A DNA stretch of 64,000 nucleotides from Elusimicrobiota bacterium (lineage in GTDB: Bacteria; Elusimicrobiota; Elusimicrobia; UBA1565): positions 124,001 to 188,000 of the forward strand of contig JACPXC010000046.1 of the NCBI GenBank assembly GCA_016196755.1. The letters run 5' to 3'. Below the pieces are notes generated by a model that saw only the letters and a program-made list of their open reading frames with translations, did not search any database and was not told where the DNA came from. Numbering within the stretch: the stretch's first letter is position 1; every line of letters begins with the position of its first letter. Below are positions 11,453 through 59,647 of this stretch, one piece after another. Both the position numbers and the translations under genes were made by a program.

Positions 11453-11488
11453 AGCCCTCCGGCCTATGGCCGGGGGGCTTCTTCTTTT
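11453..11488 (+). terminator. Rho-independent terminator of the metalloprotease gene
   Basis: A 12-bp stem (AGCCCTCCGGCC with GGCCGGGGGGCT, one T-G pair), TAT loop, followed by TCTTCTTTT. It lies 20 nt after the stop codon. Confidence 0.85.
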
Positions 11489-11510
11489 CCCGGGCCCGAG
11501 CGCCAGTAGG

Positions 11511-11528
11511 ACTATCCGCGCGGATAGT
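11511..11528. repeat. 18-bp palindrome, left copy flanking the HNH gene
   Basis: ACTATCCGCGCGGATAGT, a perfect palindrome, identical to the copy at 12678-12695. The two copies bracket the HNH gene and mark the limits of a segment with less GC-biased codon use. Confidence 0.85.
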
Positions 11529-11578
11529 ATCCCCCTGCGCCGCGGGAACTTTTTTGCGACTTCTGCGTATATATAGAT

Positions 11579-12694: not shown

Positions 12695-12695
12695 T
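12678..12695. repeat. 18-bp palindrome, right copy flanking the HNH gene
   Basis: Same sequence as 11511-11528. It contains the stop codon of the HNH gene and lies 9 bp before the convergent mreB stop. Confidence 0.85.
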
Positions 12696-12703
12696 TCGGC
12701 CGG

Positions 12704-35926: not shown

Positions 35927-36022
35927 TGGAGACTTGTATGTTGAATGCCATGCCGGTGCTGAAACCTCCTGGATGCACTAGACTGGCGTCACCGCACGAC
36001 GCCTTTGCAAGGAGGCAAGAAG

Positions 36023-37030
36023 ATGGCTGGACAGCAGACGGGTTTCGTGCCGCGCGATTACGACGTGTTCGCCGGACTAGACGTCGACAAGACGAACATC
36101 TCGGTGACGTTCGTCGACCACGAGATGGCGATCAAGTCGATGAGCCTTCCCAACGACGCGGAAAATCTGCTCGGTTATGTGGCGAAAAAATTCCCCGACA
36201 AACGCGTCGCGTTCGCATACGAGGCGGGGCCGACAGGTTATGGACTTCATGACCGAATCACGGCGGCTGGTTACCCTTGCATGGTGGTGGCGCCTTGCAT
36301 GGTCCCGACAGCGCGGGGCCACCACGTGAAGACCAACCGCCTCGACAGCCAAAAGATCTCGGAGTCGCTCCGAGGCGGACAGCTCAAGAGCATCCACGTG
36401 CCCTCGCCGAGCTATCGGGACCTGCGTCATCTCATCCAGCTCCGCGACACCTGCGTCCGGCAGGCGACGTCGACGAAGCTCCGCATCAAGGGCCTGCTTT
36501 TGTTCGAAGGCATCCCGTTTCCCCAACCCGCGGGCGCCCCAGTGCAGTGGTCGAAGTCCATCGTCGCGAGCCTCAAGACCCTGGCGTGCGGGGGAGGTGT
36601 CCGTTTCAAGCTCGACCAACTCATAGCCGCCCTTGAGTTTTCTAAGAAGCAGGTGCTGGCGACGACCAAAGAGATCCGGCGCGCTTCTGTACGGTGGACG
36701 AAGAAATCTACCGGAACATCCTATTTCTGACGAGCATCCCGGGAATCGGCTGGATTACGGCGAGTCATCTCTTGGCCAGGATCGGGGACTGGCGGAAGAT
36801 GGGCAACGTCCGCCAATTAGGGGCCTATCTTGGCCTGACCCAACGAGAGAACTCGACTGGGGTGGACGTCAAGCAATGAACGGCAAAACGACACTAGGAT
36901 TGGCACGCCTGCGTGCACGCTGCGCGCACGGTCGTGAGGATCAACTGGTCAAAACCTGCGGGGAAACTTGGACTGTGCGCGAAGCGTGCACACAGCTCGC
37001 CAGAACCATTCCGCCGTTCTCCGATCCTCG
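36023..37030 (+). pseudogene. IS110-family DEDD transposase, frameshifted
   Basis: The ATG at 36023 has AAGGAGG 7 nt upstream. The N-terminal RuvC-like part is intact: FAGLDVDKTNISV, FAYEAGPTGYGLHD, and KTNRLDSQKISE with the Asp/Glu residues. The frame breaks near 36690; the C-terminal Transposase_20 part (ILFLTSIPGIGWITASHLL, LGAYLGLTQRENSTG) continues in another frame at 36694-36879, and after a further shift the remains TTLGLARLRA can be read near 36889. At least two frameshifts mean the enzyme is dead. Confidence 0.85.
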
Positions 37031-40100: not shown

Positions 40101-40797
40101 CTAGGAGGCTTTGCCGGCCAGCTCCTTCTTCCGCCGCTCGAGCTCCTCGCGGGCCTCGCGGTTGCGGAACTCGTCCTTGGCCTTGCGCAGGACCTCGTCG
40201 GGGTTGGTGTCCGCCGCGTCCTTGGTGCCCGCGGCCTCGGCTTCCTCGCCGCGCACGGCGTCGTCGAAGCGGTCGAGGTTGTCCTTCAGGTCGCCCACCT
40301 GGAATCCGCCGCGCAGCTCGGCCATCTCCTTCTGGACCTTGGCCTGCTCGGCGCGGGTCAGCCCGGCCTGGACCTTGGCCAGCGTCTCCTCGCGCTCCGC
40401 GAAGAACCGCGCCCGGTCGGCTTTGATGTCGACCAGGGTCTTTTCCGCGAGGAGGACCTGCTCCGCGGTGGAGCTCAGCGAGGACTCCAGGGCCTTGCGC
40501 GTGGCGATGAGGCCCAGCGCCATGTCGTCGTTCTTGGGGTCCGAGTCGGTCAGGATGGCGTCGATGCTCTTCTGGAGTTCGGCGATCTTATCGGTGTTGG
40601 ACTTGGCCTGCAGGCGCAGCTTCTCGGTCAAAGTCGAGGCCTGCTGGACCTTGCGGTTGTACTCCGGCTTGGCCGCGTTTAGCTGGTCGACGATGCGCTG
40701 AGCCATCGTCTGCGGAGTCTCGAGAGACTTCACGCCCCGGCCGAACAGGCCCAGGAACGCGTTCCAACCGCGCGCCAACAGGCTCCGGAACGCCGGG
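40101..40797 (-). repeat. Direct repeat copy 2 (second PspA-like domain)
   Basis: About 0.69 kb highly similar to 41346-42033, offset near 1.24 kb. Long runs are identical, for example across KADRARFFAEREETLAKVQA and KDEFRNREAREELERRKKEL. Confidence 0.85.
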
Positions 40798-42701
40798 CTG
40801 AAGTAGGCGCCGGCCGCCACGGCCGCGCCGGCCAGGGCCGCGAACAGGCCGACGGACTCGACGGAGCCGCCGTCCTTGGCCGCGGCGTCGGCCGCGGGCT
40901 CCGCCGCCTTCGGAGCCGAGCCGCCCTCGCGGATGAACGAGAACCAATCCTCGAGGAACATCGTCACGCCGCTGGCCGCCAGCAGACCGAGAGCCGCGCC
41001 CCACGACGCTCCGTGGTAGCCGACCAGGTAGCCGGCCGCCCCGGCTGCGATGAGGCCGAGCAGGCCCCCGAAGAGGATCGCGCCCTGGCTGACCTTGCCG
41101 GAGGTGCCGAAGCCCTTCTCGGCAATCCCGCCCAGGAGGATCATCCCAAGGATGCCGGCCCCCGGCAACAGGGCCACCATGCCGGCTACGCCGGCGAGCG
41201 CACCCGTGAAGAGCCCGGCGTAGACCGCAGCGCCGAGGTTGATGGCGATGTGGGTGACTTGTCCGGTCCAGCGGATGAAGGACTGGTGCTCTTTCGAGAG
41301 GATCCCGGAGAAGTCGACTTTCGCCCCGTCGGCGTCCGCCGTCCCGGTCGCCTTGCCGGCCAGTTCCTTCTTGCGGCGCTCGAGCTCCTCGCGGGCCTCG
41401 CGGTTGCGGAACTCGTCCTTGGCCTTGCGCAGGACCTCGTCGGGGTTGGTGTCCGCCGCGTCCTTGGTCCCCTTGGCGCCGGCTTCTTGGTCGCGCACGG
41501 CGTCCTCGAAGCGGCCGATGTTGTCCTGGAGGTCGCTCACCTGGAACCCGCCGCGCAGCTCGGCCATCTCCTTCTGGACCTTCGCCTGCTCGGCGCGGGT
41601 CAGCCCGGCCTGGACCTTGGCCAGCGTCTCCTCGCGCTCCGCGAAGAAGCGCGCCCGGTCGGCCTTGATGTCGATGAGGGTCTTCTCGGCCAGCTCGAGC
41701 TGGACCGCCGAGGCGGCGATCGAGCCTTCCACGGCCTTGCGGGTGTTGATCATGCCCAGCGCCATGTCGTCGTTTTTGGGGTCGGAGTCGGTCAGGATGG
41801 CGTCGATGCCCTTCTGCAGCTCGGCGACCTTGCCTTTCTCGGCGGCGATCTGCAGGCGCAGCTTCTCGGTCAAAGTCGAGGCCTGCTGGACCTTGCGGTT
41901 GTACTCCGGCTTGGCCGCGTTTAGCTGGTCCACGATGCGCTGGGCCATGTTCTGCGGGGTCTCGAGCGTCTTCACCCCCCGGCCGAACAGGCCCAGGAAC
42001 GCGTTCCAACCGCGCGCCAGCAGGTTCCGGAAAGACGGCGAGAAAGCCGCGCCGGCGGCCACGGCCGCGCCGACCACGGCGACGCCGACGCCGACCTCGG
42101 TGACGAGAGCGCCGTCCTTGTCGGCGGAGCGGCTCAGCCCGGAGAGACGGGCGGCCGCCGGCGCGCCGGGGACCGTGACGCCGTTGCCGCTATTAAAGGA
42201 ACGACCACGCCCGATGAAGAGGGTGTCGAGGGCGACGCCGGTCTGGGAAGCCGAGGCGCCGGGCTTCGCGATGGACTGGACCGTCTGGGCCAGGCCGCGG
42301 GCGGCGGCCGGCACGGCCGCGGCGCGCGCCGACGCGCCGGGGACCGTCACCGACTGGGAGGCGGCCGCGGGGGCCGGCCGAGCCAGCGGAACGGCGGAGG
42401 CCATGGGGAGGGCTGCGGCCGCGGCGCGCGGCGCGGCCGCGGCGGCGGGCGACACGGTCATGCTCGGCATCGCGCTCGGCAGCATCGGGGAAAGGGAGGG
42501 CGTGAAGCCTACGCGCGGGGAGCTCAGCGACGGAGCGCCCACGGACGCCGAGCCGGCGGCGCCGAGGCCGGCCGTCATGGGAGAGATAGGAACGGCGACG
42601 CCGCGCCCGACGACCTGGGCGTAGGCGCGGGTGGCCAGCGGGCCGGGGCTGGCGAGCAAGATCGAGGCGATTAACGTTACCGATAGCGTCTTTTGGATCA
42701 T
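40101..42701 (-). CDS. Exported protein with two tandem PspA/IM30-like domains and membrane segments between them
   Basis: An 866-aa protein. Signal peptide at 1-28, an Ala/Pro-rich stretch to about 200, then a PspA/IM30-like coiled-coil domain (about 224-449: WNAFLGLFGRGVKTLETPQN, LELAEKTLIDIKADRARF, IGRFEDAVRDQEA), a hydrophobic region of several membrane helices (about 465-600), and a second PspA-like copy (about 632-866). The copies are nearly identical in DNA, so the duplication is recent or kept alike by conversion. PspA normally binds the inner membrane from the cytoplasm and has no signal peptide. GGAGGAGA precedes the ATG, and GCTACAAT lies at 42735-42742. Confidence 0.75.
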   Translation of the reverse strand: MIQKTLSVTLIASILLASPGPLATRAYAQVVGRGVAVPISPMTAGLGAAGSASVGAPSLSSPRVGFTPSLSPMLPSAMPSMTVSPAAAAAPRAAAAALPMASAVPLARPAPAAASQSVTVPGASARAAAVPAAARGLAQTVQSIAKPGASASQTGVALDTLFIGRGRSFNSGNGVTVPGAPAAARLSGLSRSADKDGALVTEVGVGVAVVGAAVAAGAAFSPSFRNLLARGWNAFLGLFGRGVKTLETPQNMAQRIVDQLNAAKPEYNRKVQQASTLTEKLRLQIAAEKGKVAELQKGIDAILTDSDPKNDDMALGMINTRKAVEGSIAASAVQLELAEKTLIDIKADRARFFAEREETLAKVQAGLTRAEQAKVQKEMAELRGGFQVSDLQDNIGRFEDAVRDQEAGAKGTKDAADTNPDEVLRKAKDEFRNREAREELERRKKELAGKATGTADADGAKVDFSGILSKEHQSFIRWTGQVTHIAINLGAAVYAGLFTGALAGVAGMVALLPGAGILGMILLGGIAEKGFGTSGKVSQGAILFGGLLGLIAAGAAGYLVGYHGASWGAALGLLAASGVTMFLEDWFSFIREGGSAPKAAEPAADAAAKDGGSVESVGLFAALAGAAVAAGAYFSPAFRSLLARGWNAFLGLFGRGVKSLETPQTMAQRIVDQLNAAKPEYNRKVQQASTLTEKLRLQAKSNTDKIAELQKSIDAILTDSDPKNDDMALGLIATRKALESSLSSTAEQVLLAEKTLVDIKADRARFFAEREETLAKVQAGLTRAEQAKVQKEMAELRGGFQVGDLKDNLDRFDDAVRGEEAEAAGTKDAADTNPDEVLRKAKDEFRNREAREELERRKKELAGKAS
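41346..42033 (-). repeat. Direct repeat copy 1 (first PspA-like domain)
   Basis: First of the two copies. Differences cluster in the IAAEKGKVAELQ / AKSNTDKIAELQ and AVEGSIAASAVQLEL / ALESSLSSTAEQVLL segments. Confidence 0.85.
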
Positions 42702-42791: not shown

Positions 42792-42817
42792 ATAGGTCCT
42801 AAATCTCTTAGGTCCGG
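42792..42817 (-). promoter_or_regulatory. Double TAGGTCC motif upstream of the PspA-like gene
   Basis: On the plus strand: ATAGGTCCTAA, six bases, TAGGTCCGG, that is two copies 16 bp apart. It lies 52-77 nt upstream of the -10 box and overlaps the stop codon of the 42808-44049 gene. Confidence 0.5.
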
Positions 42818-44049
42818 CCCCGGGCCTCATCGGCCTCGGAGGTCCCAGGGATCGGAACGGCCGCCGCCAGACGGTCCGCGGCGTGATACGCGTGGCGATA
42901 GCCGACGACCAGGTGCACCTGGCGCACACCCCGCGCCGCGGCGTCCGCGGCGGCGGCGTCGGCCTGGGCCGCGGAGCGGACCGCGATGGCGTCGCCGGCG
43001 TCGACCAGGGTCAGCGGCGGCTCGAGCCGGCCCAGCTCGGCCGGGTCGACCCGGTCCGCGAAATAGACGTCGGCCTGGCGGGTCAGCTGCTCGGCCAGGT
43101 CGGTGAACCCGAGCCGGGAGGCCTCCGCCGCGTCGCGCAGGACGCCCCAGCGGCGGAGCGGGCGCAGAGACGTCATGGCGGCCCAGACGAAGGCGCCCAG
43201 CGCGGCCAAGAGCAGCCAGGCGCCGGCGTCCAGCGGCGAATAAGCCAGCCAGGCCAGCGGCAGCACCAGCGTCCCCGGCACCAGAACGGCCTCGGCCGCC
43301 CGCCGCCGGGCGGCGGCCCGGGTCTCGGGGCGGTCGGCCGGCAGGATCTCGGGGACTCCGCCGGCGGCCGCGGCATGGTCGCGCACCTCGCGGCCGGAGG
43401 TGACCCCGTAGAACGCGGGCAGGTTATGCTCGAAATAGACCTCGCCGCCCGCTTCCTCGACCGCGCGCGCCAACTCGACCACGCGGCCGCGGTCGTTGGG
43501 CATCAGCTGGCCGTGGGCCAGCGGGTGGACGTGGTAGACCGCCTCGGAGCGGCGGACGACCAGGGAGGGCAGGGGCCAGGAGGCGTCGATCTCATGGCGC
43601 GGGGCGCCGGAGGCTTGGTCCCAGAGCCGCGACAGCAGGCTCCAGGAGTCCACGGCGTCGGCCGGCATCTCCCTGGCGGGCAGCAGGCCCATCGCGCCCA
43701 GGCTGCGCAGGGCGGCGGGGGCGTCCTTAGCCTTGGCCAAGGCCTCGGCGACACGCTCCCTAGGCAGGCCGGCGGCCTCGGCCCGGGCGAGGACGGCCTG
43801 GGCCGGCGAGAGCGGCGCCGGCGCCGACGGCTCGGCGACGGCGTTGGGCGCGGCGATGGCGGAGAGCGCCGAGGGCCGCGCCGCAGGAGACCCCGGCAGG
43901 GACGGAAAGGTCGGCACGAGCGACGGCGCCGCCAGAGAAGGCGCCGATAACGTCGCGGGCGCCAAGAGCGGCGCCGCCGCTCCCGGCGGCACGGTCAACG
44001 GGACCCGCACCGGCGCCAAAGTCAGCGCCAGCGCGGCGGCCTTCACCAT
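42808..44049 (-). CDS. Ala/Pro-rich membrane protein of unknown function
   Basis: A 413-aa protein. The N-terminal 80 residues are Ala/Pro/Ser-rich with a weak signal (VKAAALALTLAPVRVPL). Residues 80-270 are soluble (YHVHPLAHGQLMPNDRG, VYFEHNLPAFYGVTSG); two membrane helices (about 262-300) follow, then a C-terminal domain ending VHLVVGYRHAYHAADRLAAA. The His-rich, alternating strands recall TraB/PrgY-type proteins, but I cannot assign it. It overlaps the giant-protein gene by 7 bp, so they are co-expressed. Confidence 0.7.
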   Translation of the reverse strand: MVKAAALALTLAPVRVPLTVPPGAAAPLLAPATLSAPSLAAPSLVPTFPSLPGSPAARPSALSAIAAPNAVAEPSAPAPLSPAQAVLARAEAAGLPRERVAEALAKAKDAPAALRSLGAMGLLPAREMPADAVDSWSLLSRLWDQASGAPRHEIDASWPLPSLVVRRSEAVYHVHPLAHGQLMPNDRGRVVELARAVEEAGGEVYFEHNLPAFYGVTSGREVRDHAAAAGGVPEILPADRPETRAAARRRAAEAVLVPGTLVLPLAWLAYSPLDAGAWLLLAALGAFVWAAMTSLRPLRRWGVLRDAAEASRLGFTDLAEQLTRQADVYFADRVDPAELGRLEPPLTLVDAGDAIAVRSAAQADAAAADAAARGVRQVHLVVGYRHAYHAADRLAAAVPIPGTSEADEARGRT

Positions 44050-47000
44050 CCCGACCGCCCGTTGCCGGACTTCGAGCCGCCGCTGAAGCCGCCGGAGCGG
44101 CCGCCGCCCGAGTTGTTGGCGCGCTCGCGGCGCTGGCGCTCGGCGTTGTCGCGGGCTCTCTGAGCGTCCCGCGCGGCCCGCTGACGCGCCTCTTCGGCGC
44201 GGCGACGGCTGGCCTCCTCGGCCTCGGCCGCGGAGATGGCGGAGGCGGCGCTGCCGTAGGCCGACTCGGCGTGGTTTTTGGCCCGGACGTACTCGCCGCG
44301 CCGAAGCGCCGCACGCGCCGAATCGAGCGCGCTGGAGCCCGGAGAACCTGTGATGGAGACTCCATAGGAACCCGACCAGTTGGTGGCCTCGCGGACCCTG
44401 GAGGCGGCCGAGGAGATCGCGGAAACCGCGTTCTGAGCGGCCTGGATCTCCCCGCGCAGGGTCGCGGCGACCAAGCCGGCCCTCGCCGTCACCCTATCGG
44501 CCGTCTGGTCCATCGCGTTCCAGTCGCCGTGGGCCGACTCGAAGGCACGCGAGGCGCCGACCAATTCGCCGCCCAGAGCATCAAGCTCGCCGAAGGCCGC
44601 CGTGATGGCGGGGCTGTCGGCCACCTTGTCGTTGGCCGCCTGGCGTGAGACCTCTCCGGCCGCGTCAATGGCCCGACGCGCGGCCTCGAGGCTGCGTCCG
44701 GCCTCGGCGTAAGCGTCGCGGTCGTTGCGGACCGAGACCCAGACCTTGTCGAGCGCGGCGTTGACGGCCGCCAGCGCGGCCGCCGCCTTGAACGGGTCGC
44801 CCTTGGCGGCTTTCACGGCCTTGCGCGCCTCCTCGAGATCCGTCAGGGCGGCGTCGTAGGCGCTCAGAGACGGCCGCATCGTGCGGCCGTCGCCGATGAC
44901 CTCGGCGTCGTACTGCTTTTTGCGCGAATCAAGGGCGGTCAAAGTCCGACCGTTCTCGGCCACGGCGGCCTCGAGGCGGGTCTTCTTGTCGAGGATCTCC
45001 TCGAGCCGGTGGCGCGCTAGGTCCTGGTGCGCGTCGGCCTGGTCGAGCAGGGAGGCCGCCGCGAGCAGGCGTCCGGCGGCGAACGCCGTCACGGCCTTCT
45101 CGGTCTTGGCCGCGGCTTGGTCCATCCCGGTGCGGGCCTCGGCCGGATTGTCGTCGATCGTCCCGTTCCCGTTGGGGTGCGTGGGATCGCCGGCTCCGAG
45201 AGAGAGGACCGACGGGGCGTAGGCGCGGCGCAATCCCTCGAGCAGGACGATCCGCTCTGGAGCCAGGGTCTCTAGACCGGCGCTCTCGGCCCGCCGGGCT
45301 TCCAAGGTCTTGGCGTGGCCTGACAGGGACTGCAGGGAGAGCCGGACGATATGCGCGGCTTGAGAAGCCGCGGTGTTCCCCGCGCTCAGCGCGGAGGCGG
45401 CCTCGCCCAGCTTGCCCTGTCCGAGGAAGGCCGCGGCCTCTTCGGCGCGCCGGGAGGCGTCGGCCAGGGACGTCGTAGGATCCTGGTCCTTCTCGCGCAA
45501 GGTCGTCTCGGGCTCGAGCCCCAGTCTCCGTCCTACCTGCTCGCGGGCCGCGGCGACCGACGCCGTCCCCCCGGCGATGCCGTCGGCGCGCAGGGCCGCC
45601 AGGTCGGCGACGATGGCGGAGGCTTGGGCGGCGCGGGACCTCAGTTCCTCGGCGCGCCTGTCCAGCGCGGCAAGCTTGGCGGAGCCGTCCGAGGCGGCCA
45701 GCGCCGCGGCGGCGGACTCCGCGGCCCCGGACAAACGCGAGGTCTCGCCGTCGAGCCAGGTCGATCCGATGGCGGCGCCGCCGAGGGCCGCCGTCGCGGC
45801 CGCCGCGGTCGGGAACACGGTGCTCCGGAAGTTCAGGACCGTGGCGACCAGCCTCTGGGCGTCTTGGCCGATGCGGTCGGCGAGCGCGCCGTCGCCGTCG
45901 AGGCCGCCCACCGGGTCGGTCTTCACCGTGACGCGGGCCCGCTCGAGCGCCGCGGCGCCGGCCGCCAGAGCCGATGACGCCATCGACGGCAGGAGGAACA
46001 GTCCGTCGTCGGCGCCGGCGGTCTGGAGCTTCTGCCAGCCCTTCTCGGCCATCGACAGCGCGGTGGTGAAGGATCGCAGCGCCGGCCCATGGCCGGTGAC
46101 GGCGGCCTCGAGCCTGGCCAGGTCCTCGGCGGCCTTCTGGGAGCGCTCGTTGAACGCCGCGATGACCTCGTTGAAGGACTTCTTGAACGGCGCGTAGGCG
46201 GCGAGGTTCCCGTAGAGCTCCTCCTGCCACGAGCGCTTCGTGCCGAGCACGGCCTCGACGCCGTCCTGCGGCTTGAACTCGACGGGCTCGTCCTGCAGGC
46301 GGCGCGCGGCGGCCTCGTAGCGCGAAGGCCAGAACGCGTTGACGAACCAGCCCCAGGAGAAGAGCGACGGCTCCAGGAGGGGGCGCACCTGGTCGTGGAC
46401 CAACTGGGCCGCGGCGAGCAGGATCTTGGCCGTGCCGGCGTTTAGCCGGATGGCCGCCGAGAGCTCGGCCGACTTGCCCACCCAACCGCGCGCCTTAGGA
46501 CCGGACTCCGCGCCGACGTAGGTGTCCAGCTTCAAATCGAGGCCGTCGATGATGGCCTCGAGCTTGACGTCCAGGGCGGTGCTCCAGCTCCGGAACAGCT
46601 CGTCGGCCTTGAGCCCCGCTCGGGCGGCGCGGCGGTTGAGGAAGACCGCGGCGCCCAGGGTCAGGACGTTGGCCAGGGCGAGGAGGATCCAGGTCCACAT
46701 CCGCCGCGAGGCCGCCGAGGCGTCGGCCCGGGCGATCGCCGACTCGGCCGAGCCCAGCACGGACTTCGCCGCTTCGAGGCGCTCGGCGTAGGCCGAGGAG
46801 CCGTCCTCGTAGGCTTCGCGCGCGGCGGCCAAGTCCTGGCGCGCCGTGACGAGGGCCTCCGCCGCGGCGTCGGCGTAGGGACGGCCTGTCAGCTCGGCGA
46901 GCAGGGTCTCGGCGGAGGCGATGCGGTCGGCGCCTCCGGCGAAGGCGGCCAGGGCTTCGCCGTGGGCGCGGGCGGCGGCCGAGACCGAGGCGGCCGCGGC

Positions 47001-48656
47001 GGCGGCGCCGGCCGGGTTCGTCTTGGCGAGCGTCGCCGCGTCCTTGAGGGAGGCGCGCCAGTCCGCGACGGCGGGGCGGGCCAGGTCTCCGGCGGACTTC
47101 GGATGCTCGGCCTGGAAGGAGGAGGCGGCCTTCTCCGAGGCCGCGACGGCCGCAGCGGCGGAGTCGAGCGATTCCACGGCGCGTACGGAATCGCGCTCGA
47201 AGCCGCGGGCGCGGTCGAGGGCGGCGCGGGCCTGGGAGACGGGCCCGGCCAGGGTCTCGGCGGCCGCGCGGGCCTGGCCGGCGGCGAGTTGGGTCTCGGC
47301 GGCGGCGGCGGCCGCGCGCAGGACGGCGGGGCTGGGCCAGGCCATCGCGGCGTAGGCGTCGGGATGCGCGGTCTTAAACGCCGGGCCCTCGCGCTCGAGG
47401 TCGGCGGCCAGGGTCTTGGCCGCGGCCGCGGAGGACTGGACCGAGCTCCTTTCAGCGGCGATCTTGGTCTCGAGCTGGGCCGTGACGTTCTTGACCGTCC
47501 CCTCGACGGCGCCGACGATGTCGCCCGAGCTCTTGAGCGCGGAGACCGCCCAGCGGTCGAGGTTGCCGGCGAACTGGGTCGTGCCGTCGAGTCCCCGCGC
47601 GTTGTAGGCGTCGGCGGTCCGCAGGAGCAGGACATGCTGCTGCATGACGATGGTCAGGATGGCTCCGTCGCGCTCGCCGGTCTGGGGATGCGTCTGGGCG
47701 AGGATCCCTTCCTTTTTATAGAGGCCTTGGCCGGTGGCGAAATCGACGGCGTCGTCGCCGTAGTGGGTCCGGCCCTCGGCGTCGGTGTAGCGCAGGCCCG
47801 AGGCGTCCTGGACGAGGACAGCGGTCCAGTGCTTGCCGGCCATCGAATCGGCCAGGCGCTGGAGCTCGGCCTTGCCGAGACCGACGTCGCCTATGACGAT
47901 GACGCGCACCGAGGCGTCGTAGCGCGCCAGGGCGTCGCCCAGGTCGCGGGCCTGCAGGACGGCGGCCTGCGTGGCCTCCGCGTCCGGCTGGGCCTGGGCC
48001 ACGACGGCAATCGGCGCGGGGACGGCCAGCGGGCGCGCGGGGGCCTGGGCGAGCGACAGAGCGGGGTTGAGGAGAGCGGCGCCCAGCATCAGCGCCGCTA
48101 CGAAGCCTTTGACGCGCGAGAATACGCCTTGCGAGGCGGGCGCTCTGGGCGTAACGCCGCTCGAGTCCCAGGCGGGCGCTCCCAACGCGTTAGCGTTGCG
48201 CCGCAGGGAGGCGTTGACGCGGCGGGAGTCGAAGCGGGCGGCGGGGGCGGCCTGCGCCTCGTCGGAGTAGACGGGAGAGCCGGACGTCATCGGCGCAGGC
48301 GCCGCGGCGGCGGCGGTCCGCAGAGCCGCGGACTGTTTCGCGACGGCGGCGGGCAGGACGGCGGCTGCCGCCGCGGGAGCGGCGGCGACGGCCGCGGCGG
48401 AACGCGCGACGGGAGCCGAGGCGGCAACGGCCGCGCGGGGCGCCGTCGGCAGGGTGCCGGTCAGGCCGGAGGGAGTGAAGGACGGGAGCGTGGACGGCAG
48501 GCTGGGGCCCGCGGCCGGCGCGGCGGCGCCGGCTCCGGAGACCGGGGCGGCGGGACGGCCGACGGGGACAGCGGCGGCGCGCCCGACGCCTTGCGCCAGG
48601 ATGGGCTGGGCGAAGAAAAGAATGGAGGAGACTGCGGCTAAAATCCGGTTTCTCAT
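44043..48656 (-). CDS. Giant exported coiled-coil membrane protein with TPM-like region and Gly/Ser tail
   Basis: About 1537 aa from ATG 48656; GTG 48662 would add two residues. Signal peptide at 1-21, Ala/Pro-rich stretch to about 220, then a possible TPM-like domain (about 225-370: VRVIVIGDVGLGKAELQRLA, GILAQTH). Long Ala/Glu-rich helices follow, with a membrane segment (WTWILLALANVLTLGAAVF) near 655 and more than 800 residues of coiled coil beyond. The tail GGGRSGGFSGGSKSGNG resembles those of TPM proteins. Only part of the fold can be named. TACAAT lies 8 nt upstream of the ATG. The Psp-like gene is two genes on. Confidence 0.75.
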   Translation of the reverse strand: MRNRILAAVSSILFFAQPILAQGVGRAAAVPVGRPAAPVSGAGAAAPAAGPSLPSTLPSFTPSGLTGTLPTAPRAAVAASAPVARSAAAVAAAPAAAAAVLPAAVAKQSAALRTAAAAAPAPMTSGSPVYSDEAQAAPAARFDSRRVNASLRRNANALGAPAWDSSGVTPRAPASQGVFSRVKGFVAALMLGAALLNPALSLAQAPARPLAVPAPIAVVAQAQPDAEATQAAVLQARDLGDALARYDASVRVIVIGDVGLGKAELQRLADSMAGKHWTAVLVQDASGLRYTDAEGRTHYGDDAVDFATGQGLYKKEGILAQTHPQTGERDGAILTIVMQQHVLLLRTADAYNARGLDGTTQFAGNLDRWAVSALKSSGDIVGAVEGTVKNVTAQLETKIAAERSSVQSSAAAAKTLAADLEREGPAFKTAHPDAYAAMAWPSPAVLRAAAAAAETQLAAGQARAAAETLAGPVSQARAALDRARGFERDSVRAVESLDSAAAAVAASEKAASSFQAEHPKSAGDLARPAVADWRASLKDAATLAKTNPAGAAAAAASVSAAARAHGEALAAFAGGADRIASAETLLAELTGRPYADAAAEALVTARQDLAAAREAYEDGSSAYAERLEAAKSVLGSAESAIARADASAASRRMWTWILLALANVLTLGAAVFLNRRAARAGLKADELFRSWSTALDVKLEAIIDGLDLKLDTYVGAESGPKARGWVGKSAELSAAIRLNAGTAKILLAAAQLVHDQVRPLLEPSLFSWGWFVNAFWPSRYEAAARRLQDEPVEFKPQDGVEAVLGTKRSWQEELYGNLAAYAPFKKSFNEVIAAFNERSQKAAEDLARLEAAVTGHGPALRSFTTALSMAEKGWQKLQTAGADDGLFLLPSMASSALAAGAAALERARVTVKTDPVGGLDGDGALADRIGQDAQRLVATVLNFRSTVFPTAAAATAALGGAAIGSTWLDGETSRLSGAAESAAAALAASDGSAKLAALDRRAEELRSRAAQASAIVADLAALRADGIAGGTASVAAAREQVGRRLGLEPETTLREKDQDPTTSLADASRRAEEAAAFLGQGKLGEAASALSAGNTAASQAAHIVRLSLQSLSGHAKTLEARRAESAGLETLAPERIVLLEGLRRAYAPSVLSLGAGDPTHPNGNGTIDDNPAEARTGMDQAAAKTEKAVTAFAAGRLLAAASLLDQADAHQDLARHRLEEILDKKTRLEAAVAENGRTLTALDSRKKQYDAEVIGDGRTMRPSLSAYDAALTDLEEARKAVKAAKGDPFKAAAALAAVNAALDKVWVSVRNDRDAYAEAGRSLEAARRAIDAAGEVSRQAANDKVADSPAITAAFGELDALGGELVGASRAFESAHGDWNAMDQTADRVTARAGLVAATLRGEIQAAQNAVSAISSAASRVREATNWSGSYGVSITGSPGSSALDSARAALRRGEYVRAKNHAESAYGSAASAISAAEAEEASRRRAEEARQRAARDAQRARDNAERQRRERANNSGGGRSGGFSGGSKSGNGRSGW

Positions 48657-48664
48657 AGGCACGG

Positions 48665-48839: not shown

Positions 48840-49916
48840 TCAGCGGACTGACAAGACCGCGTAGATGCGGCACGTCTCGTGGGGGTAGATATGGTTGTCG
48901 CCGCCCGCCCCCCAGGAGTTGCGGGTGAGGAACAAGAAGGCCCCTGCGTCGTCGACCCTATACCCCGAGATGATCATGGCGTGGGACCCTCCCGCTGTGT
49001 ACGTGCGGATGCCGATCGGCCGTCCGGCGCGCAGCTCGGCCAGCACGGCCGCGGTCTGGTCCGCGCCGGCCCGGCGGCACTCGTCGCGGCCCGTCGTCAT
49101 CGAGCCCGCCCCGACCCCCGCGAAGGACTGCTGCTCCATACGCAGGCCCGCGAAGGCCCTCCGGGTCTCCTCGCGCTGGGCCTCCAGCGTGCGGTCGTTG
49201 CCGCTCAGGTAGTTCTGGAGGATGCGCTGGGCCGTGGGGTCCTGCTGGAGTTGGACCCAATGCGCGCGATGGTCGTAGAGCATCCGGACATACCAGGGTT
49301 CCCTCTGCGCCTGGCGCTCCAGGTCCTCGAGGGTCCGTCGCTCGGCCTCACGGTATTGGCGGTAGCGGCGCAGGAAGTCCTGGTACTGCAGACTGGTCGC
49401 CACGCCGTTGTCGAGGGCGAACTGCAGCGTGCCAGCCGTGTCGTTGCCCTCGGAGAGGTCCCCCCGCCCGCGGCGCAGGTAATTCTCATAGGCGTCCGTA
49501 CTCAGCACGTTGCGGCGCATGAACAGATCGGCCTCCGACAGCTGCAGGCGGGCGCCGGTGCGGCGGAAATGCGCCGCCTCGATGAGCCCGACCGACGCGA
49601 AGGTATGGCAGGAGCCTACGTCGCCCTGGCTACGCGACGGGCTGGGGAACTGCCCCGAGTGGTCGACGCCGGGGTCGCGGGGCGCGGCGGCCGGGGCTCC
49701 CCCCGCCACGGCCGCGCCTCGACCGGCGGCGGGAACCGGGACGGCCGCCACTCCGGCCGCGCCCGCCATCCCGAGGAGCGCCCCGTAGGCGCCTCCGTTA
49801 AGAAACCCGCCCTGGGCCTGCGCCAGGAGGATCCCCTCCTCGCCCCGCGCCGCCGCGCAGGCGAACACCACCGCCGACAGGACCGACGCCGTCCGTGTGC
49901 TCCGTGCCATGACCAC
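48840..49916 (-). CDS. Secreted papain-like cysteine protease (C1)
   Basis: A 358-aa protein. Signal peptide (about 1-25), Ala/Gly-rich stretch to about 80, then a C1-type domain: SQGDVGSCHTFASVG with Gln97 and nucleophile Cys103, SHAMIISGY with His312, and RNSWG with Asn333. The oxyanion Gln, Cys, His and Asn are all present, so the enzyme should be active. A long insert (about 140-250) with many Arg and Gln separates the halves. No classic propeptide is seen; the Ala-rich front may replace it. A 45-bp palindrome follows the gene. Confidence 0.9.
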   Translation of the reverse strand: MVMARSTRTASVLSAVVFACAAARGEEGILLAQAQGGFLNGGAYGALLGMAGAAGVAAVPVPAAGRGAAVAGGAPAAAPRDPGVDHSGQFPSPSRSQGDVGSCHTFASVGLIEAAHFRRTGARLQLSEADLFMRRNVLSTDAYENYLRRGRGDLSEGNDTAGTLQFALDNGVATSLQYQDFLRRYRQYREAERRTLEDLERQAQREPWYVRMLYDHRAHWVQLQQDPTAQRILQNYLSGNDRTLEAQREETRRAFAGLRMEQQSFAGVGAGSMTTGRDECRRAGADQTAAVLAELRAGRPIGIRTYTAGGSHAMIISGYRVDDAGAFLFLTRNSWGAGGDNHIYPHETCRIYAVLSVR

Positions 49917-53238: not shown

Positions 53239-53574
53239 ATGAGCGAAAGCGAATTGGCGCTGAAGAAATGCATCCCCTGCCGGGGCGACATCCCTCCCAT
53301 GCCTATAGAGGAAGCCCGCCGCCTGCTCTCCCAGCTCCAAGGCTGGGCGCTCAACGATAAAGGCCACCTGGAGAAGTCCTACGCCTTCAAGGGCTTCCGT
53401 CCCGGCCTCGAGTTCGTCAAGCGCGTGGGCGAGATGGCCGAGGAGCAGGGGCACCACCCAGACGTGTTCCTGGCCTGGGGCAAGGTGACGCTCGAGGTCT
53501 GGACCCACAAGATCAGCGGCTTGGCCGAGAGCGATTTCATCTTCGCCGCCAAGGCCGACGCCCTGCTGGGTTAA
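53239..53574 (+). CDS. phhB: Pterin-4a-carbinolamine dehydratase
   Basis: A 111-aa PCD/DCoH-type protein. EEQGHHPDVFLAWGKVTLEVWTHK contains the catalytic His pair (core EEQGHHPDVFLAWGKVTLEV), and LSQLQGWALNDKGHLEKSY is the usual N-terminal part. It dehydrates hydroxytetrahydropterin during pterin recycling. The extra N-terminal ALKKCIPCRGD has a CxxC that may bind metal, as in many PCD-like proteins. No phenylalanine hydroxylase is near. GGGGGA precedes the ATG. The stop overlaps the TPR/kinase-fragment stop by 3 bp. Confidence 0.95.
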   Translation: MSESELALKKCIPCRGDIPPMPIEEARRLLSQLQGWALNDKGHLEKSYAFKGFRPGLEFVKRVGEMAEEQGHHPDVFLAWGKVTLEVWTHKISGLAESDFIFAAKADALLG

Positions 53575-55430
53575 TCGCGTCCGTCCAGGTACTCGAACAC
53601 GAGCAGCAGGTCGTCGCCGTCGCTGACGGCGGTATGGACCCGTCCCAGGCTCGGATGCTCCGAACCCGCGGTCTCCGCCAGCAGCCGGGAGGCCGCCTCG
53701 GGGTCCACGCGTCCCCGGCCGCGCAGGAGCTTGACGGCCACGGCGCGCTTGAGGGTGAGATCGCGGGCTTTGTAGACCGCTCCCCCCAGCGCCGTCTCGA
53801 TGAGGTAGTTGCCGGCCATGACCGTGCCCAAGCCGGCCGCCGGCTCGTCGCCGCGCCGGCGGTTCCAGGCGGCCACGCCCAGCCCGACGAGCGCCAACGC
53901 GGCGCCGGCCGCCGCTAGGCCGACCCTGAGACCCGCGGAGCCGGAGCCCCCGGCCGGGACCGCCTCGGGATGCTCCCCCGCCGAAAACGCCACGAGCGGG
54001 TCGGCGTCCGGAGCCAGGTCGCGCAGCTTGTCCATGACCGGAGCGAAGCGGGCATCGAGCGCGGCCGCCTGCCCGGCCTCGGCCAGCGCCTCGGCGGTCC
54101 GCTTGAGGCCGGCCAGCGCGTAGGCGCGCGCCCAACGGCCCAGCGCGCTGCCGGGCATCAGGCTCAACGCGGCCTCGGAGTCCCGCAGGGCGCCTTGGAA
54201 GTCGCCCTGCCGGTTGCGCGCCGTGGCGCGGAGGTTCAAGGCGCCCACGTGACTGGGCGTAAACTCCAAAAGGCGCGTCGCCTCCCCTTCGGCCTCCCGG
54301 AACCGGCCGTCCCGGAGCAGGGCCTCGGTCAGCATGAGGCGCGGAGCCGGCTCGGCCGGCGCGGCCGCCACGGCCTTGCGCAGGGTGTCGACGGCGCGCG
54401 GCCCGTCTCCGACGCGCTGCTGCTCGCGGGCGCTGCGCATGAGGATGGGGACCGACGGGGCCTCGACGGCGGCCGGCGGGGCGCCGGGAGGCTCCTCGCG
54501 CACGCCGACTACGGGGCGGCCGCGGGGCGCCGCGGACGGCGGCGGCAGCCGGAAGGAGGCGGGAAGCACCCGGGGCTCGGCCAGCATCAGGAGGTCTTTC
54601 GCCTTGGAGTTGCCGGGGTCGAGGCTGACCGCTTTGGCGAGGTCCGCGGAGGCCTCGGGCTTGCGGCCCAGGTTCAGGTTGGCGGCCCCGCGCAGGTAGA
54701 ACAGGCTGGGCTTCTGAGGGTCGCCTTCGATGGCCGTGTCGAGCTGGCCGACGGCCTTGGCGAAGTCGCCCTTGCGGAAGTTCGCGGCGCCGGCTAGGCC
54801 GGCCACGCCGGGGTCGCGCGGGAAGTCCGAGGCAAGCTGGTCGAGCCCGCTCTGCGTGGCGGGGTCGGACAGATTGGGGTTGTTGACGAAAGGATCGAAA
54901 GAATCGACGCCGGCGGGCGGCGTCACCGCCTGCGTGACGAGCTCCGCCTGGGGCGGCGTGAACGCGGCCGGCAGGGCCAGAGGGTTGGCCGCCGCCGCCT
55001 GAGGCCCGACGGTCTCCGCGATATCCTGGGGTGCGACGGAGTCCGGGGGCGCCGCCGGCCCTTGAGGCGTGACGGGCTCCGAGGCGGCGTTGGGCTCGGG
55101 CTTGCCCTTGAGCTTCCCGGCCCAGAGAGCGGAGAACCACGCGCCGTCCTCCGCCGTCGCCGCGGCCGCCTCACCGTCGGACGTCATCGACGCTATGACC
55201 CTGCGCTGCTTCTCGATCCTCTCGAGCAGGGCGGGGTCCTTCGTCTCCGCGTACTGATCCTCGAGCTTCTTGAGCTGGAGCTTCGCGGCCAGCCGGGAAC
55301 TCCGGTCCGCGTCCAAGGCGAACTCGGACAGCCGCGTAGTGGACCTGTTCTCACGATCATCGAAGGTATTCCGCGCTTGCGAGCCCAAAGGCAGCGCGGC
55401 GAGCAGGAGGAGACAGCTCGGGATCGACAT
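53571..55430 (-). CDS. TPR protein with truncated protein-kinase N-lobe
   Basis: A 619-aa paralogue of the next gene. Signal peptide at 1-20, Pro/Ala linker, TPR repeats (about 190-280 and 350-490: FYLRGAANLNLGRKPEASAD, NLRATARNRQGDFQGALRD), a membrane helix (about 517-535), and at the end the start of a Ser/Thr kinase: VMAGNYLIETALGG, VAVKLLR, DGDDLLLVFEYLDGRD. The glycine loop has lost about four residues and everything after the hinge is missing, so it cannot phosphorylate. The break lies exactly at the junction with phhB. Confidence 0.8.
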   Translation of the reverse strand: MSIPSCLLLLAALPLGSQARNTFDDRENRSTTRLSEFALDADRSSRLAAKLQLKKLEDQYAETKDPALLERIEKQRRVIASMTSDGEAAAATAEDGAWFSALWAGKLKGKPEPNAASEPVTPQGPAAPPDSVAPQDIAETVGPQAAAANPLALPAAFTPPQAELVTQAVTPPAGVDSFDPFVNNPNLSDPATQSGLDQLASDFPRDPGVAGLAGAANFRKGDFAKAVGQLDTAIEGDPQKPSLFYLRGAANLNLGRKPEASADLAKAVSLDPGNSKAKDLLMLAEPRVLPASFRLPPPSAAPRGRPVVGVREEPPGAPPAAVEAPSVPILMRSAREQQRVGDGPRAVDTLRKAVAAAPAEPAPRLMLTEALLRDGRFREAEGEATRLLEFTPSHVGALNLRATARNRQGDFQGALRDSEAALSLMPGSALGRWARAYALAGLKRTAEALAEAGQAAALDARFAPVMDKLRDLAPDADPLVAFSAGEHPEAVPAGGSGSAGLRVGLAAAGAALALVGLGVAAWNRRRGDEPAAGLGTVMAGNYLIETALGGAVYKARDLTLKRAVAVKLLRGRGRVDPEAASRLLAETAGSEHPSLGRVHTAVSDGDDLLLVFEYLDGRD

Positions 55431-55434
55431 GCGC

Positions 55435-57882
55435 CTAGAGCGCTCCCACGGCTTGCGCGAACTCGCGCGCGGTCTGAAAGCGCTGGTCCGGCCGGGCGTG
55501 CAGGGCACGGCGCAGGACGGCGTCGGTGACTGGCGGCAGAGACGGCATGCGCTCGCAGGGCGGCGTGAACTGCATGCGCTGCTTCTGGCCGAGCCCGTCG
55601 GGGCCCGGGAACGGGACGCTGCCGGTGACGATCTCGTAGAAGCAGGCTCCCAAGGCGTAGACGTCGGAGGCCGCCGAGACGCTGCCCAGCTCCTGTTCCG
55701 GCGGCATGTAGGCCGGCGAACCCCAGCAGGCCGCGTTGGTCTGCTTGGAAGCCGAGAGGCGCGCCTGGTGGGCCAGGCCGAAGTCCATCACCAGGACCTT
55801 CCCGTCGTTTTGGACCATGATGTTGGCGGGCTTGAGGTCGCGATGGATGACGCGCCCGGCGTGGGCGTGGTCGATCGCCTCCGCCGCCTGCCGCACGACG
55901 GCCTGGGCGTCGCGCAGCGGCAGGTGCCCGAAGTCGGCCAGCAGGTCGCTCAAGGTGCGTCCGTCGACGTACTCGAAGACGAGGAGCAGGTCGTCGCCGT
56001 CGCTGACCACGGTATGGATCTGGACGATGTTGGGATGCTTGAGCCCGGCGACCAACTGGGCCTCCTGCAGGAGCTGCGAGGCGGGCTCGGCGCGCCCGCG
56101 CGAGTACTGGCGCAGCATCTTGATCGCCACCGTCCGCTTGAGGGTGAGGTCCTGGGCCTTGAAGACCACGCCCATCGTCCCGCGTCCCAGCTCGGACTCG
56201 ATCATGTAGTTGCCGGCCAGCAGGGCGCCGGGACCGAGGGTCTGGGAGGCCGAGGGCGGCGCGCTCCGGGGCGCCCGCTCGGGGATGACGATCTCCGCGT
56301 CGGACTCCGCGGGATGGGCCTCGCGCCGTTGGGGGACGGCCTCCGGACGCCGGCGGCGCAGGGCGAAGAGCACGAGCCCGACGGAGGTCAGCGCGGCACC
56401 CGCCGCCGCAAGGCTGACGCGCAGGGGGTCGGAGGGCGCCGCCGCGGCGGCGGTGCGCTCGCCCCCGCCGGCGGTCTCGGCGAAGGCCACCAGCGGGTCG
56501 GCGTCCTCCGCCAGCGCCGCCAGCCGCGCCGACACCGGCGCGAAGCGCTCATCGAGCGCGGCGGCCTGCGCGGCCTCCGCCTGCGCCTCGACGCGGCGCT
56601 TGAGGCCGGCTAACGCGTAGGCCCGCGCCCAATGGCCCAGGGCGCTTTGCGGCATGAGCCGCAGCGAGAGCTCGGTGTCCCGCAGGGCCCCGGCGTAGTC
56701 GCCCAGCCGGTCGCGGGCCGTGGCGCGGAGGTTCAAGGCGCCCACGTGGTTCGGGGAGAACTCGAGCAGGCGCGTCGCCTCCCCCTCGGCTTCCGAGAAC
56801 CGCCCGCCCTTGAGCAGGGCCTCGGTCAGCAGGAGGCGCGGCGCCGGGTTGGCGGGCTCGGCGCGCACGGCCTTCTGGAGTGTGGCCACGGCCCGGACCT
56901 TGTCGCCCACGCGGGCCTGCTCCTGGGCGCTGCGCATCAGGATCGCCGCGGTCTCCGCCGGCGCGGCCTCGGCGGGGGCGGGCTCCTCGTAGCGGGCCGC
57001 CCGCACCCCGGCCGGGCGCGCGGTCGTCCCCCAGGGGAGCGGCACCCGATAGCCGGTGGGGGCCACCTTGTTCTGCGCCAGCATCAGGAGGTCCTTGGCG
57101 TTGACGTGGCCGGGATCGAGCTTCAAGGCGCGGTTGAGGTCGGCGGCGGCCTGCGGGGTCCGTCCGAGGTTGAGGTTGGCGGCGCCGCGCAGATAGTAGA
57201 GGTCGGGGTTGTCCGAGCCGCCGCCGATCGCCGCCCCGAAGAGCCGGTCGGCCCGGGGATAGTCTCCCTGCCGCAGAGCGATGACGCCGTCGACCATGTT
57301 CACGCCCGGGTCGTTGGGAAAGCGCTCCTGAAGGCGGTCCGCGGCGTCCTCGGTGCGCTGGTCGATAGGCTCGTCGGAGAAGGCGCGCTCCGCCGCGCCG
57401 CGGAAGGCGTCCCGGTCCGCGAGGCTCATGGCCTGCGGGTAGACCAGCGCGGGGGCAGCCGCCACCGCCGCCGGCGGCGCCTCCACCGGGGCATCCTCGC
57501 GAGGAGGCGCGGCCGGAGCCTCCGCGCGCAGCAACTCGATCTTGCCGCTAAGCCGGGCGCGGAGGTCCGGGTCCACGGCGCCGGCCAGCTCCTCCTCGAG
57601 CTGATCGATATGCGCGGCCTGCTGGACCCGCGGGTCATGGAGCGACGGCTCCACACCCATCTCTTTGTAGAGCTCTTGGATGTCGGTGAGGTGGCGGCGC
57701 CTGGCCTCGCGGTCGGGGGCGTTCGCCATCGCCTGGATCAAGGCCGCGAGGCGCTGCTTGCGCTCCACCGCCTGGACCGCGGTCGTCAGCGCTCCCACCG
57801 ACAGGCCGATGTCCCCGGCGGCGGGCGCCGGCCATGACAGCGACAGGAGGAGCGCCCACCACCCAAGCGCGGATGCCGTCAT
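55435..57882 (-). CDS. TPR-containing membrane Ser/Thr protein kinase
   Basis: About 815 aa. The start is ATG 57882 or 57903; both begin a hydrophobic signal or anchor. Helical region to 120, TPR repeats at about 180-270 and 340-470 (LYYLRGAANLNLGRTPQAAA, ALNLRATARDRLGDYAGALR), membrane helix near 518-535, then a C-terminal Hanks-type kinase: GRGTMGVVFKA, VAIKML, HRDLKPANIM, MDFGLA and SPAYMPPEQ. All catalytic residues are present. The TPR part lies outside the membrane if the topology is as for other PknB-like kinases, so it may sense envelope proteins. Divergent from a histidine kinase gene. Confidence 0.88.
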   Translation of the reverse strand: MTASALGWWALLLSLSWPAPAAGDIGLSVGALTTAVQAVERKQRLAALIQAMANAPDREARRRHLTDIQELYKEMGVEPSLHDPRVQQAAHIDQLEEELAGAVDPDLRARLSGKIELLRAEAPAAPPREDAPVEAPPAAVAAAPALVYPQAMSLADRDAFRGAAERAFSDEPIDQRTEDAADRLQERFPNDPGVNMVDGVIALRQGDYPRADRLFGAAIGGGSDNPDLYYLRGAANLNLGRTPQAAADLNRALKLDPGHVNAKDLLMLAQNKVAPTGYRVPLPWGTTARPAGVRAARYEEPAPAEAAPAETAAILMRSAQEQARVGDKVRAVATLQKAVRAEPANPAPRLLLTEALLKGGRFSEAEGEATRLLEFSPNHVGALNLRATARDRLGDYAGALRDTELSLRLMPQSALGHWARAYALAGLKRRVEAQAEAAQAAALDERFAPVSARLAALAEDADPLVAFAETAGGGERTAAAAAPSDPLRVSLAAAGAALTSVGLVLFALRRRRPEAVPQRREAHPAESDAEIVIPERAPRSAPPSASQTLGPGALLAGNYMIESELGRGTMGVVFKAQDLTLKRTVAIKMLRQYSRGRAEPASQLLQEAQLVAGLKHPNIVQIHTVVSDGDDLLLVFEYVDGRTLSDLLADFGHLPLRDAQAVVRQAAEAIDHAHAGRVIHRDLKPANIMVQNDGKVLVMDFGLAHQARLSASKQTNAACWGSPAYMPPEQELGSVSAASDVYALGACFYEIVTGSVPFPGPDGLGQKQRMQFTPPCERMPSLPPVTDAVLRRALHARPDQRFQTAREFAQAVGAL

Positions 57883-57994
57883 GATTATAAGGATAGACCC
57901 CATCCCCGCGGGATTCAAGTGCCATTGGGCCCGCATTGATCGCATGTCCCGGTCGGAGTCAGGAGGTCTGGAATCTGATACCATCCGCCGCGGT

Positions 57995-59647
57995 ATGCGT
58001 CCTCCCTCGCTCGAGTCCCTGCCGTTGCGCTTCCAGGTATTCGGGGCATTCTTCCTGCTGCAGGCCGTGGTCCTCATCGGCAGTTTCGCGGCCCTCCACC
58101 GCATGGAGCGGAACCTGGTCGATGCCGAGTTGGAGAAGGCGCTGGCCTCCGCCCTGGCCACGGCCGACGAGCACTTGGACCAGGTCATGGAGAGGATCGG
58201 CGGCCGGGTCCGAAAGACCAACGAGAGCCCCGGGCAATGGACTCGCTTTCGCGAAGTCCATCGGACGCAAGCCGAGGGCCGCTTCTTCGCCAGGCTCAAA
58301 AGCCGGATCGGGGCCGACCATCTCTTCGTCCTGGACCGGGAGGGACGGATCCTCTCCGCGACCACGGGGAAGACCGCGCCCGACCCGTCGGCCCGCGACT
58401 TGCCTCCCATCCGCCAGGCCATCAACGGACGCGAGGCCCGTGGGACGCACGCCTACATGGGCAGGCTCTGGGACATCATCGCCGTCCCGGCCCCCGACCC
58501 GGAGCGGCTCGTACTCGCGGCCTTCCTCGGTCAGGACGAGCGCCGCGCCCGGAGGATATCGAAGATCGCCGGGATCCCGATCGCGCTGAGCGATGGGAAG
58601 AGCGTCGTCGTTTCCGCCATGGAGTCGGGGCTCCAGGAGGCCTTCCAGAGCGAGCTGCCGACTTTCCTCCCCGAGCGGCTCGGCGTCTTCGACGTGGCCG
58701 GAGAGCGCTACGCGACCCACTCCCGGCCCATCTCCGAGACCGTCCGGATCCACGTCATGACCTCCTGGGACAAGGTCGCCGGGCCCCTGGGAAGGCTCAA
58801 GCGCTACCTGGTCCTGCTGGGAGCGCTCAGCCTGTCGCTCTCCATCCTTCTGGGCTACCTCATCGCCCGCGGGATCACGGCGGCCATCCAGGCGCTGGTG
58901 GACCGGCTGCGGGACTCCAACGCGAAGCTCGACGACCTCAACCGGTTCAAGGACCGCTTCTTCGCCATGGTGGCGCACGACCTGCAGAATCCCCTGAGCT
59001 CCATCCTGGGATACGCGGAGTTCCTCGAGAAAGACCCCAAAAACGCCAGGGTTCCGGAATGGGCCGGGGTGCTCCGGCGCTCCGCGGAGATCCTGGGCTT
59101 CCTGACCGCCGACCTCGTGGACTTCACCGCCATGGAGTCCGGGAAACTGCGCATGAAGATCGACGCCATGGACCTCTCCGAGGTGGTCCGCGACGTCGAG
59201 CGCGTGCTGTCCTTCAAGGCGGCCCACCGGCAAGTCGCCTTCTCGATCGACGGGCTGCCCGCCGCCCTGCCCATGCGCGGGGACCCCCGCCGGCTCGCCC
59301 AGCTGCTCCAGAACCTCTGCTCCAACGCGATCCAATACACGCCCATCGGCGGCTCCGTCTCGGTGAGCCTGCGGCCCGGCGCCTCCGAGGTGGAGATCGC
59401 GGTCCGGGACACGGGCATCGGGATAGCCCCGGAGGACCTTCCCCGCATCTTCGGGGAGTTCTTCCAGGCCAAGAACGCGACCCAGATGCGCGCCGGGGGC
59501 TTCGGCCTGGGCCTGAGCATCGTCCAGGAGATCGTCAAGGCCCACGGCGGACGGATAGCGGTCGAGAGCGTCTTGGGCCGCGGCTCGGTCTTCACCGTGC
59601 GCCTCCCGACGGGAACGCGCCAAGCCTTGTCAGACCAGGTCGTTTAG
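57995..59647 (+). CDS. Membrane sensor histidine kinase
   Basis: A 550-aa protein. Membrane helix at 13-33, a periplasmic sensor of about 240 residues (possibly a dCache- or CHASE-like fold; DHLFVLDREGRILSAT), second helix around 275-297, then HisKA with MVAHDLQNPLSSILGYAEF, and HATPase with NLCSNAIQYTP, DTGIGI and GGFGLGLSIV. The partner is the OmpR-type regulator 17 nt downstream. It is divergent from the TPR kinase gene. Confidence 0.92.
   Translation: MRPPSLESLPLRFQVFGAFFLLQAVVLIGSFAALHRMERNLVDAELEKALASALATADEHLDQVMERIGGRVRKTNESPGQWTRFREVHRTQAEGRFFARLKSRIGADHLFVLDREGRILSATTGKTAPDPSARDLPPIRQAINGREARGTHAYMGRLWDIIAVPAPDPERLVLAAFLGQDERRARRISKIAGIPIALSDGKSVVVSAMESGLQEAFQSELPTFLPERLGVFDVAGERYATHSRPISETVRIHVMTSWDKVAGPLGRLKRYLVLLGALSLSLSILLGYLIARGITAAIQALVDRLRDSNAKLDDLNRFKDRFFAMVAHDLQNPLSSILGYAEFLEKDPKNARVPEWAGVLRRSAEILGFLTADLVDFTAMESGKLRMKIDAMDLSEVVRDVERVLSFKAAHRQVAFSIDGLPAALPMRGDPRRLAQLLQNLCSNAIQYTPIGGSVSVSLRPGASEVEIAVRDTGIGIAPEDLPRIFGEFFQAKNATQMRAGGFGLGLSIVQEIVKAHGGRIAVESVLGRGSVFTVRLPTGTRQALSDQVV

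Follow-up and report, generated by a model that had tools for sequence, protein, structure and literature searches.

PspA is a membrane-repair protein that is normally small and soluble, and the subunits of PspA, Vipp1 and ESCRT-III are understood to be soluble, gathering on a membrane and later leaving it. A 64,000-nt stretch of an Elusimicrobiota genome (contig JACPXC010000046.1, assembly GCA_016196755.1; hereafter the window) contains an open reading frame that, on a sequence-only reading, seemed to join two PspA/IM30-like domains through several membrane helices in one exported polypeptide. The locus raises the questions of whether these are genuine PspA domains, on which face of the inner membrane they lie, and how a subunit of this family could work when it is fixed in the membrane.

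Architecture of the tandem PspA protein

The 866-aa protein is built from a repeated unit of hydrophobic segment, helix 0 and PspA domain (Table 1), and hydropathy analysis gave six hydrophobic segments beyond the signal peptide, of which those at residues 485–503, 505–523, 542–560 and 565–583 form the linker. The signal peptide and Ala-rich front described in the sequence-only reading were both recovered, with the signal-peptide-like start kept in homologues (MFKKSLASxVSAAVxVAGPGHL...AAAQ), and the several membrane helices said to join the copies correspond to approximately four hydrophobic segments between the domains and one before each. Its PspA motifs and domain boundaries (residues 224–449 and 632–866) were likewise correct. 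The first ~190 residues, comprising the signal peptide and Ala/Pro-rich region, share 54% identity with the N-terminal part of a 372-aa protein that is encoded elsewhere in this genome and is otherwise unrelated (L010, G000:C43:22663-23229), with the common part finishing in an ALDTLF-G motif; this common start may be an export or sorting module.

Table 1 Features of the tandem PspA protein and the upstream cassette genes, with positions in the window.
Feature	Position	Strand	Basis
Multi-PspA putative membrane protein, 866 aa, complete single ORF, ATG start	40101..42701	-	ORF; same N-terminus in homologues
Signal-peptide-like N-terminus, residues 1-28, ATRAYA/Q (slash, end of residue 28)	42618..42701	-	Sequence; hydrophobic 5-23
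Ala/Pro-rich N-terminal region, residues 29-197	42111..42617	-	Similar start in exported protein G000:C43
Hydrophobic segment ahead of domain 1, residues 198-216	42054..42110	-	Hydropathy
PspA/IM30 copy 1 with amphipathic helix 0, residues 223-446 (Pfam 227-446)	41364..42035	-	Pfam, profile, fold
Inter-copy putative membrane linker, ~4 hydrophobic segments, residues 485-583	40953..41249	-	Hydropathy
Gly-Gly module junction, AAKDGG/SVES, residues 611-612	40866..40871	-	GG equivalent at almost all homologue junctions
Hydrophobic segment ahead of domain 2, residues 616-634; repeat of the pre-domain-1 segment	40800..40856	-	Alignment, hydropathy
PspA/IM30 copy 2 with amphipathic helix 0, residues 637-860 (Pfam 641-860)	40122..40793	-	Pfam, profile, fold
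Cassette gene 2: 413-aa protein, N-terminal Ala/Pro-rich region, central hydrophobic stretch	42808..44049	-	Conserved between genes 1 and 3
Cassette gene 1: 1,539-aa exported coiled-coil protein, predicted TPM-fold domain, Gly-rich C-terminus	44043..48662	-	Conservation, model
Predicted TPM-fold domain, residues 225-416 of cassette gene 1	47415..47990	-	AlphaFold pLDDT 75, pTM 0.77; Foldseek

Identity of the repeated domains

Both copies matched the Pfam family PspA_IM30 (PF04012) at model positions 2–217 of 220, with scores of 36.4 bits for copy 1 (41364–42023) and 43.8 bits for copy 2 (40122–40781) against a gathering cut-off of 33.9 bits. The same family was matched by 18 of 21 domain copies from related genomes, each on its own, which argues that the matches in the window are not due to chance. 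A profile of the 21 domain copies aligned over 188 columns to canonical PspA from Elusimicrobiota (four proteins; 95.5%, E 1.4e-8), with the alignment beginning in helix 0 and placing ETPQ in register with EDPK. Helix 0 of both copies is amphipathic and of the lipid-binding type, with hydrophobic moments of 0.56 and 0.52 that were attained by 0.6% and 1.0% of shuffled sequences, respectively.

Fold comparison with PspA (4WHE) and Vipp1 was carried out on an AlphaFold model of residues 195–866, which is uninformative on assembly (pLDDT 50 and pTM 0.25 overall, with hairpins at 70–87). Modelled helix lengths of approximately 17, 56, 77, 19 and 31 residues per domain follow the PspA/Vipp1 order, and the first 16 places in a Foldseek search of the PDB were all occupied by Vipp1 or PspA, with no competing fold. 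The best E-value was modest (1.2e-3) because the query was a low-confidence two-domain model; E. coli PspA (4whe) aligned with a TMt of 0.74 at 2.8 A, and the ESCRT-III protein Snf7 scored somewhat lower. The domains therefore possess the elements of the fold (helix 0, the hairpin of helices 1 and 2/3, and helices 4 and 5), with moderate model confidence in the hairpins only. Pfam, the profile match to canonical PspA and the fold together confirm the earlier proposal of two PspA/IM30-like domains. The form typical of the family, which is no part of the Pfam definition, is a single-domain, soluble, peripheral protein; with two domains, a signal peptide and six further hydrophobic segments, the window protein represents a variant architecture rather than a typical member.

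Our preferred reading, to which we assign a probability of roughly 0.6 based on the sequence and its comparisons, is that this is a permanently membrane-anchored, multi-copy PspA that would form ESCRT-III-like scaffolds with a TPM-domain partner for envelope maintenance. It would thus seem that a known repair polymer has become a fixed part of the membrane.

Membrane topology

Topology was estimated from hydropathy and from the K/R charge of loops. The membrane segments of the 866-aa protein are Gly/Ala-rich, only moderately hydrophobic, anchor-like and putatively membrane-spanning. Short loops carry five K/R residues on the side of domain 1 and none on the other, in agreement with the combination of signal peptide and segment 198–216, which would place domain 1 in the cytoplasm. 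The suggestion that the pair lies outside the cytoplasm is consequently not established, as both the segment and the loop charges point to a cytoplasmic domain 1. Domain 2 may lie either outside or inside the cytoplasm: a spanning segment 616–634 together with four linker helices would make it periplasmic, while an error of one in either helix count would leave both domains cytoplasmic.

It is possible, if on balance doubtful, that a single molecule carries ESCRT-III-like domains on both faces of the inner membrane, domain 1 being cytoplasmic and domain 2 periplasmic. Four linker helices, an even number, and one hydrophobic segment between the copies would give this arrangement if segments 198–216 and 616–634 both span, and in genome G209 the distribution of short-loop K/R residues (~16 on the side of domain 1 and 1 on the other, under our assignment of sides) fits the alternation. 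However, the helix counts are uncertain, as the linker may contain three helices and segment 616–634 may be non-spanning, and the homologues in G203 and G209 have no hydrophobic segment between the signal peptide and domain 1, so that export and loop charge disagree there. In addition, no precedent for a periplasmic PspA was found in the open-licence literature searched. Somewhat less probable again, in our view, is a covalent ESCRT-III scaffold with the TPM partner in which one polypeptide exposes PspA domains on both sides of the inner membrane or threads as many as four through it.

Gly-Gly junctions between modules

Almost every module boundary of the tandem PspA proteins carries a Gly-Gly pair preceded by K/D, in forms such as KKDGANGG (G204), KxKGQAGG or DDKTATGG (genus g9) and AAKDGG (window). 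In one protein of 1,933 aa (L081, G204, ORF 7696–13494), approximately eight boundaries between modules carry KKDGANGG or a close variant. Each duplication may have passed on the pair as a flexible seam, or the junctions may be cleavage sites.

Cleavage would make the protein a polyprotein from which separate membrane-anchored PspA units are freed, a reading that we regard as unlikely. Among the sequences scanned, a Gly-Gly pair leading into a hydrophobic stretch was confined to tandem PspA proteins, apart from the Gly-rich tails of TPM proteins, and the succession of Gly-Gly, helix and basic residues resembles the GlyGly-CTERM signal. Nevertheless, the rhombosortase model TIGR03902 was not found in the window's genome (best score 42.3 bits, cut-off 84), and the rhomboid matches obtained were all generic and below threshold (21.8–46.2 bits against 84), with such matches also present in all 14 control genomes; rhombosortase-type cleavage is accordingly unsupported. 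The window protein has a clear Gly-Gly only at the boundary before domain 2, and a flexible linker between repeat units accounts for the pattern equally well.

The weakest alternative, an exported coiled-coil envelope scaffold that merely resembles PspA because long helical hairpins score against coiled-coil profiles, is very improbable: other coiled-coil families do score weakly on the domains (LAMB1, 1e-5; KIF21A), a PDB sequence search with the full 866-aa protein gave no match and one with the domain profile only a marginal match (Vipp1, E 0.79), but a generic coiled coil was rejected on three grounds, namely the Pfam match, which exceeds the family cut-off and covers helices 0 to 5, the canonical PspA profile match and the sixteen consecutive Vipp1/PspA fold matches.

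The TPM-fold and 413-aa genes of the cassette

The anchored multi-copy PspA that we favour is the last gene of a three-gene cassette on one strand, following genes for a 1,539-aa TPM-fold protein and a 413-aa protein. Both of these genes lie upstream of the tandem PspA gene in every locus with enough flanking sequence (G192, G195, G196, G203, G204 and G209). The 1,539-aa protein has a signal peptide, coiled coils and one membrane-like segment near residues 656–675. Pfam TPM (PF04536) gave no match in the window's genome up to an E-value of 10 and none in six members of the protein family, whereas eight of the top ten Foldseek matches to the modelled domain were TPM entries (7tbr, 2kw7, Arabidopsis AtTLP18.3 twice, BA41 twice, BA42 and Psb32), the best being 7tbr with an E-value of 6.8e-4; the other two were chains of mycobacterial respiratory supercomplexes. 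The model thus indicates a divergent TPM domain that is recognised by fold only. Relatives from another family share ~40% identity with the protein over 1,500 aa.

The 413-aa protein had no match in Pfam, NCBIfam or the PDB. Its family, present in 12 of 341 Elusimicrobiota genomes, has a C-terminal HVVVGHLHAHEVA motif as well as H, E and G residues that are invariant; in G204, a further copy (L090 13711–15042) lies downstream of the tandem PspA gene.

On the downstream side, gcvT adjoins the cassette in the window; a functional link to gcvT-gcvH is unsupported, as the congeners G184 and G185 have gcvT/gcvH without an adjacent cassette. Directly upstream of the cassette is a gene for an exported protein that by eye resembles a papain-type C1 cysteine peptidase (48840–49916, minus strand), and further along the same strand are two adjacent, similar TPR-repeat proteins with a TM segment and, by eye, a serine/threonine kinase domain (53571–55508 and 55435–58425), the former of which seems to end within the kinase domain. 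The plus strand carries an ORF at 36005–36730 that by eye is like the start of an IS110-type transposase, followed by no full-length gene.

Distribution and history of the arrays

The same architecture, looked for in other genomes, is present with 2–4 copies in independent Elusimicrobiota assemblies. Tandem-type PspA domains are carried by 9–10 of 341 Elusimicrobiota genomes, and a scan of 84,980 species genomes, with a reach of fairly close relatives, found relatives only in this phylum. Three copies are present in G209 (1,303 aa) and G204 (1,933 aa), and four in the complete genome G203 (CP096137), in which the frame changes between copies 3 and 4 across a short C-run (~9380–9400 of locus L047), probably through a slip in sequencing or a frameshift of recent origin. 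Copies 2 and 4 of this array are almost identical. An assembly artefact was rejected: the window gene lies within a contig of 219 kb, and independently assembled genomes show the same architecture, among them CP096137 and contigs of 96 kb and 210 kb. Other draft contigs are interrupted where the repeats occur, as genuine repeats would cause.

In genus g9, the domain tree sorts the copies of different species into groups by their position (1, 2 or 3), indicating that the array is ancestral in that genus, while the two copies in the window group together (89/95), as do the three copies of G204 (100/100). Expansion or homogenisation of arrays has thus taken place more than once. A Pfam search found no other PspA in the window's genome. 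Free PspA genes, with open frames of 249–254 aa, occur in other members of the order, and no genome showed both free and tandem PspA, although the numbers are small (5 and ~9 of 341). The cassette was not found in two congeners, and the search gave no relative of the PspA or 413-aa gene elsewhere in their genomes; with such patchy occurrence, the cassette is not essential to the lineage.

The two copies in the window had been described as nearly identical in DNA, which holds for one 300-nt block (40108–40407 against 41350–41649, 93% identity) but is overstated for the domains, which are 84% identical in protein (249 aligned codons: 180 identical, 29 synonymous differences and 40 non-synonymous). 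The differences are patchy, with a longest identical run of 30 codons (p 0.002) and overall clustering exceeded by 0 of 20,000 shuffles, a pattern that fits homogenisation between the copies. However, the silent changes alone are not significantly clustered (p 0.22), and the patches are thus explained equally well by selection acting on parts of the domain.

Proposed mode of action

As a permanently anchored multi-copy protein, the tandem PspA would most probably work by polymerisation of its domains side by side, within one molecule and from molecule to molecule, into ESCRT-III-like scaffolds at the inner membrane, which would stabilise or remodel that membrane. The built-in helices would replace the separate receptors of soluble PspA (PspB/PspC, or YdjG/YdjH), so that assembly would be set by local density and the TPM partner rather than by recruitment from the cytosol. 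The TPM protein itself would be a partner in assembling or guarding envelope complexes.

Comparison with known systems

The domains share with PspA/Vipp1 (IM30), of the bacterial ESCRT-III superfamily, their length, helix order, amphipathic helix 0, fold, the E-[DT]-P motif after helix 0 and the Pfam family PF04012. Canonical PspA is one soluble domain of ~220–250 aa (G189, G190, G228 and G230), whereas the proteins described here have 2–4 domains, membrane linkers and a signal peptide. Multiple PspA_IM30 domains in a protein are not in themselves new: passages of Ravi et al. (2024, PMC11237479) describe tandem repeats and adjacent, occasionally fused PspA genes in cyanobacteria and others, with repeats or fusions in <2% of PspA homologues. 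The claim of a new geometry therefore stands only in part, for the signal-peptide and membrane-module form, which appears to be new; the signal peptide and multi-helix linkers are unmentioned in the passages of PMC11237479 searched, and no description of signal-peptide-bearing, membrane-linked multi-PspA proteins was found in the open-licence literature searched.

Like proteobacterial pspABC, the cassette is expected to have its PspA effector at the inner membrane, but no PspC was detected in the cassette genomes tested and the window's genome has no separate soluble PspA. The closer parallel is pspA-ydjGHI of Bacillus subtilis, as both systems place PspA beside a membrane protein in which a TPM domain is followed by low-complexity sequence or a long coiled coil. 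TPM proteins with such tails are conserved partners of PspA in the passages of Ravi et al. (PMC11237479), which identify Bacillus YdjH as a TPM protein; YdjH binds PspA, which depends on both YdjH and YdjG to localise to the membrane (PMC8581546). The Elusimicrobiota cassette differs in having no SPFH protein, an extra 413-aa gene, a TPM domain too divergent for Pfam and a PspA that itself bears the membrane anchor. It extends the PspA–TPM pairing to a phylum whose cell biology has hardly been studied and would offer a ready-made construct for studies of topology and assembly, in which two to four naturally fused, helix-held subunits would test how far the action of PspA, Vipp1 and ESCRT-III depends on free subunit exchange.
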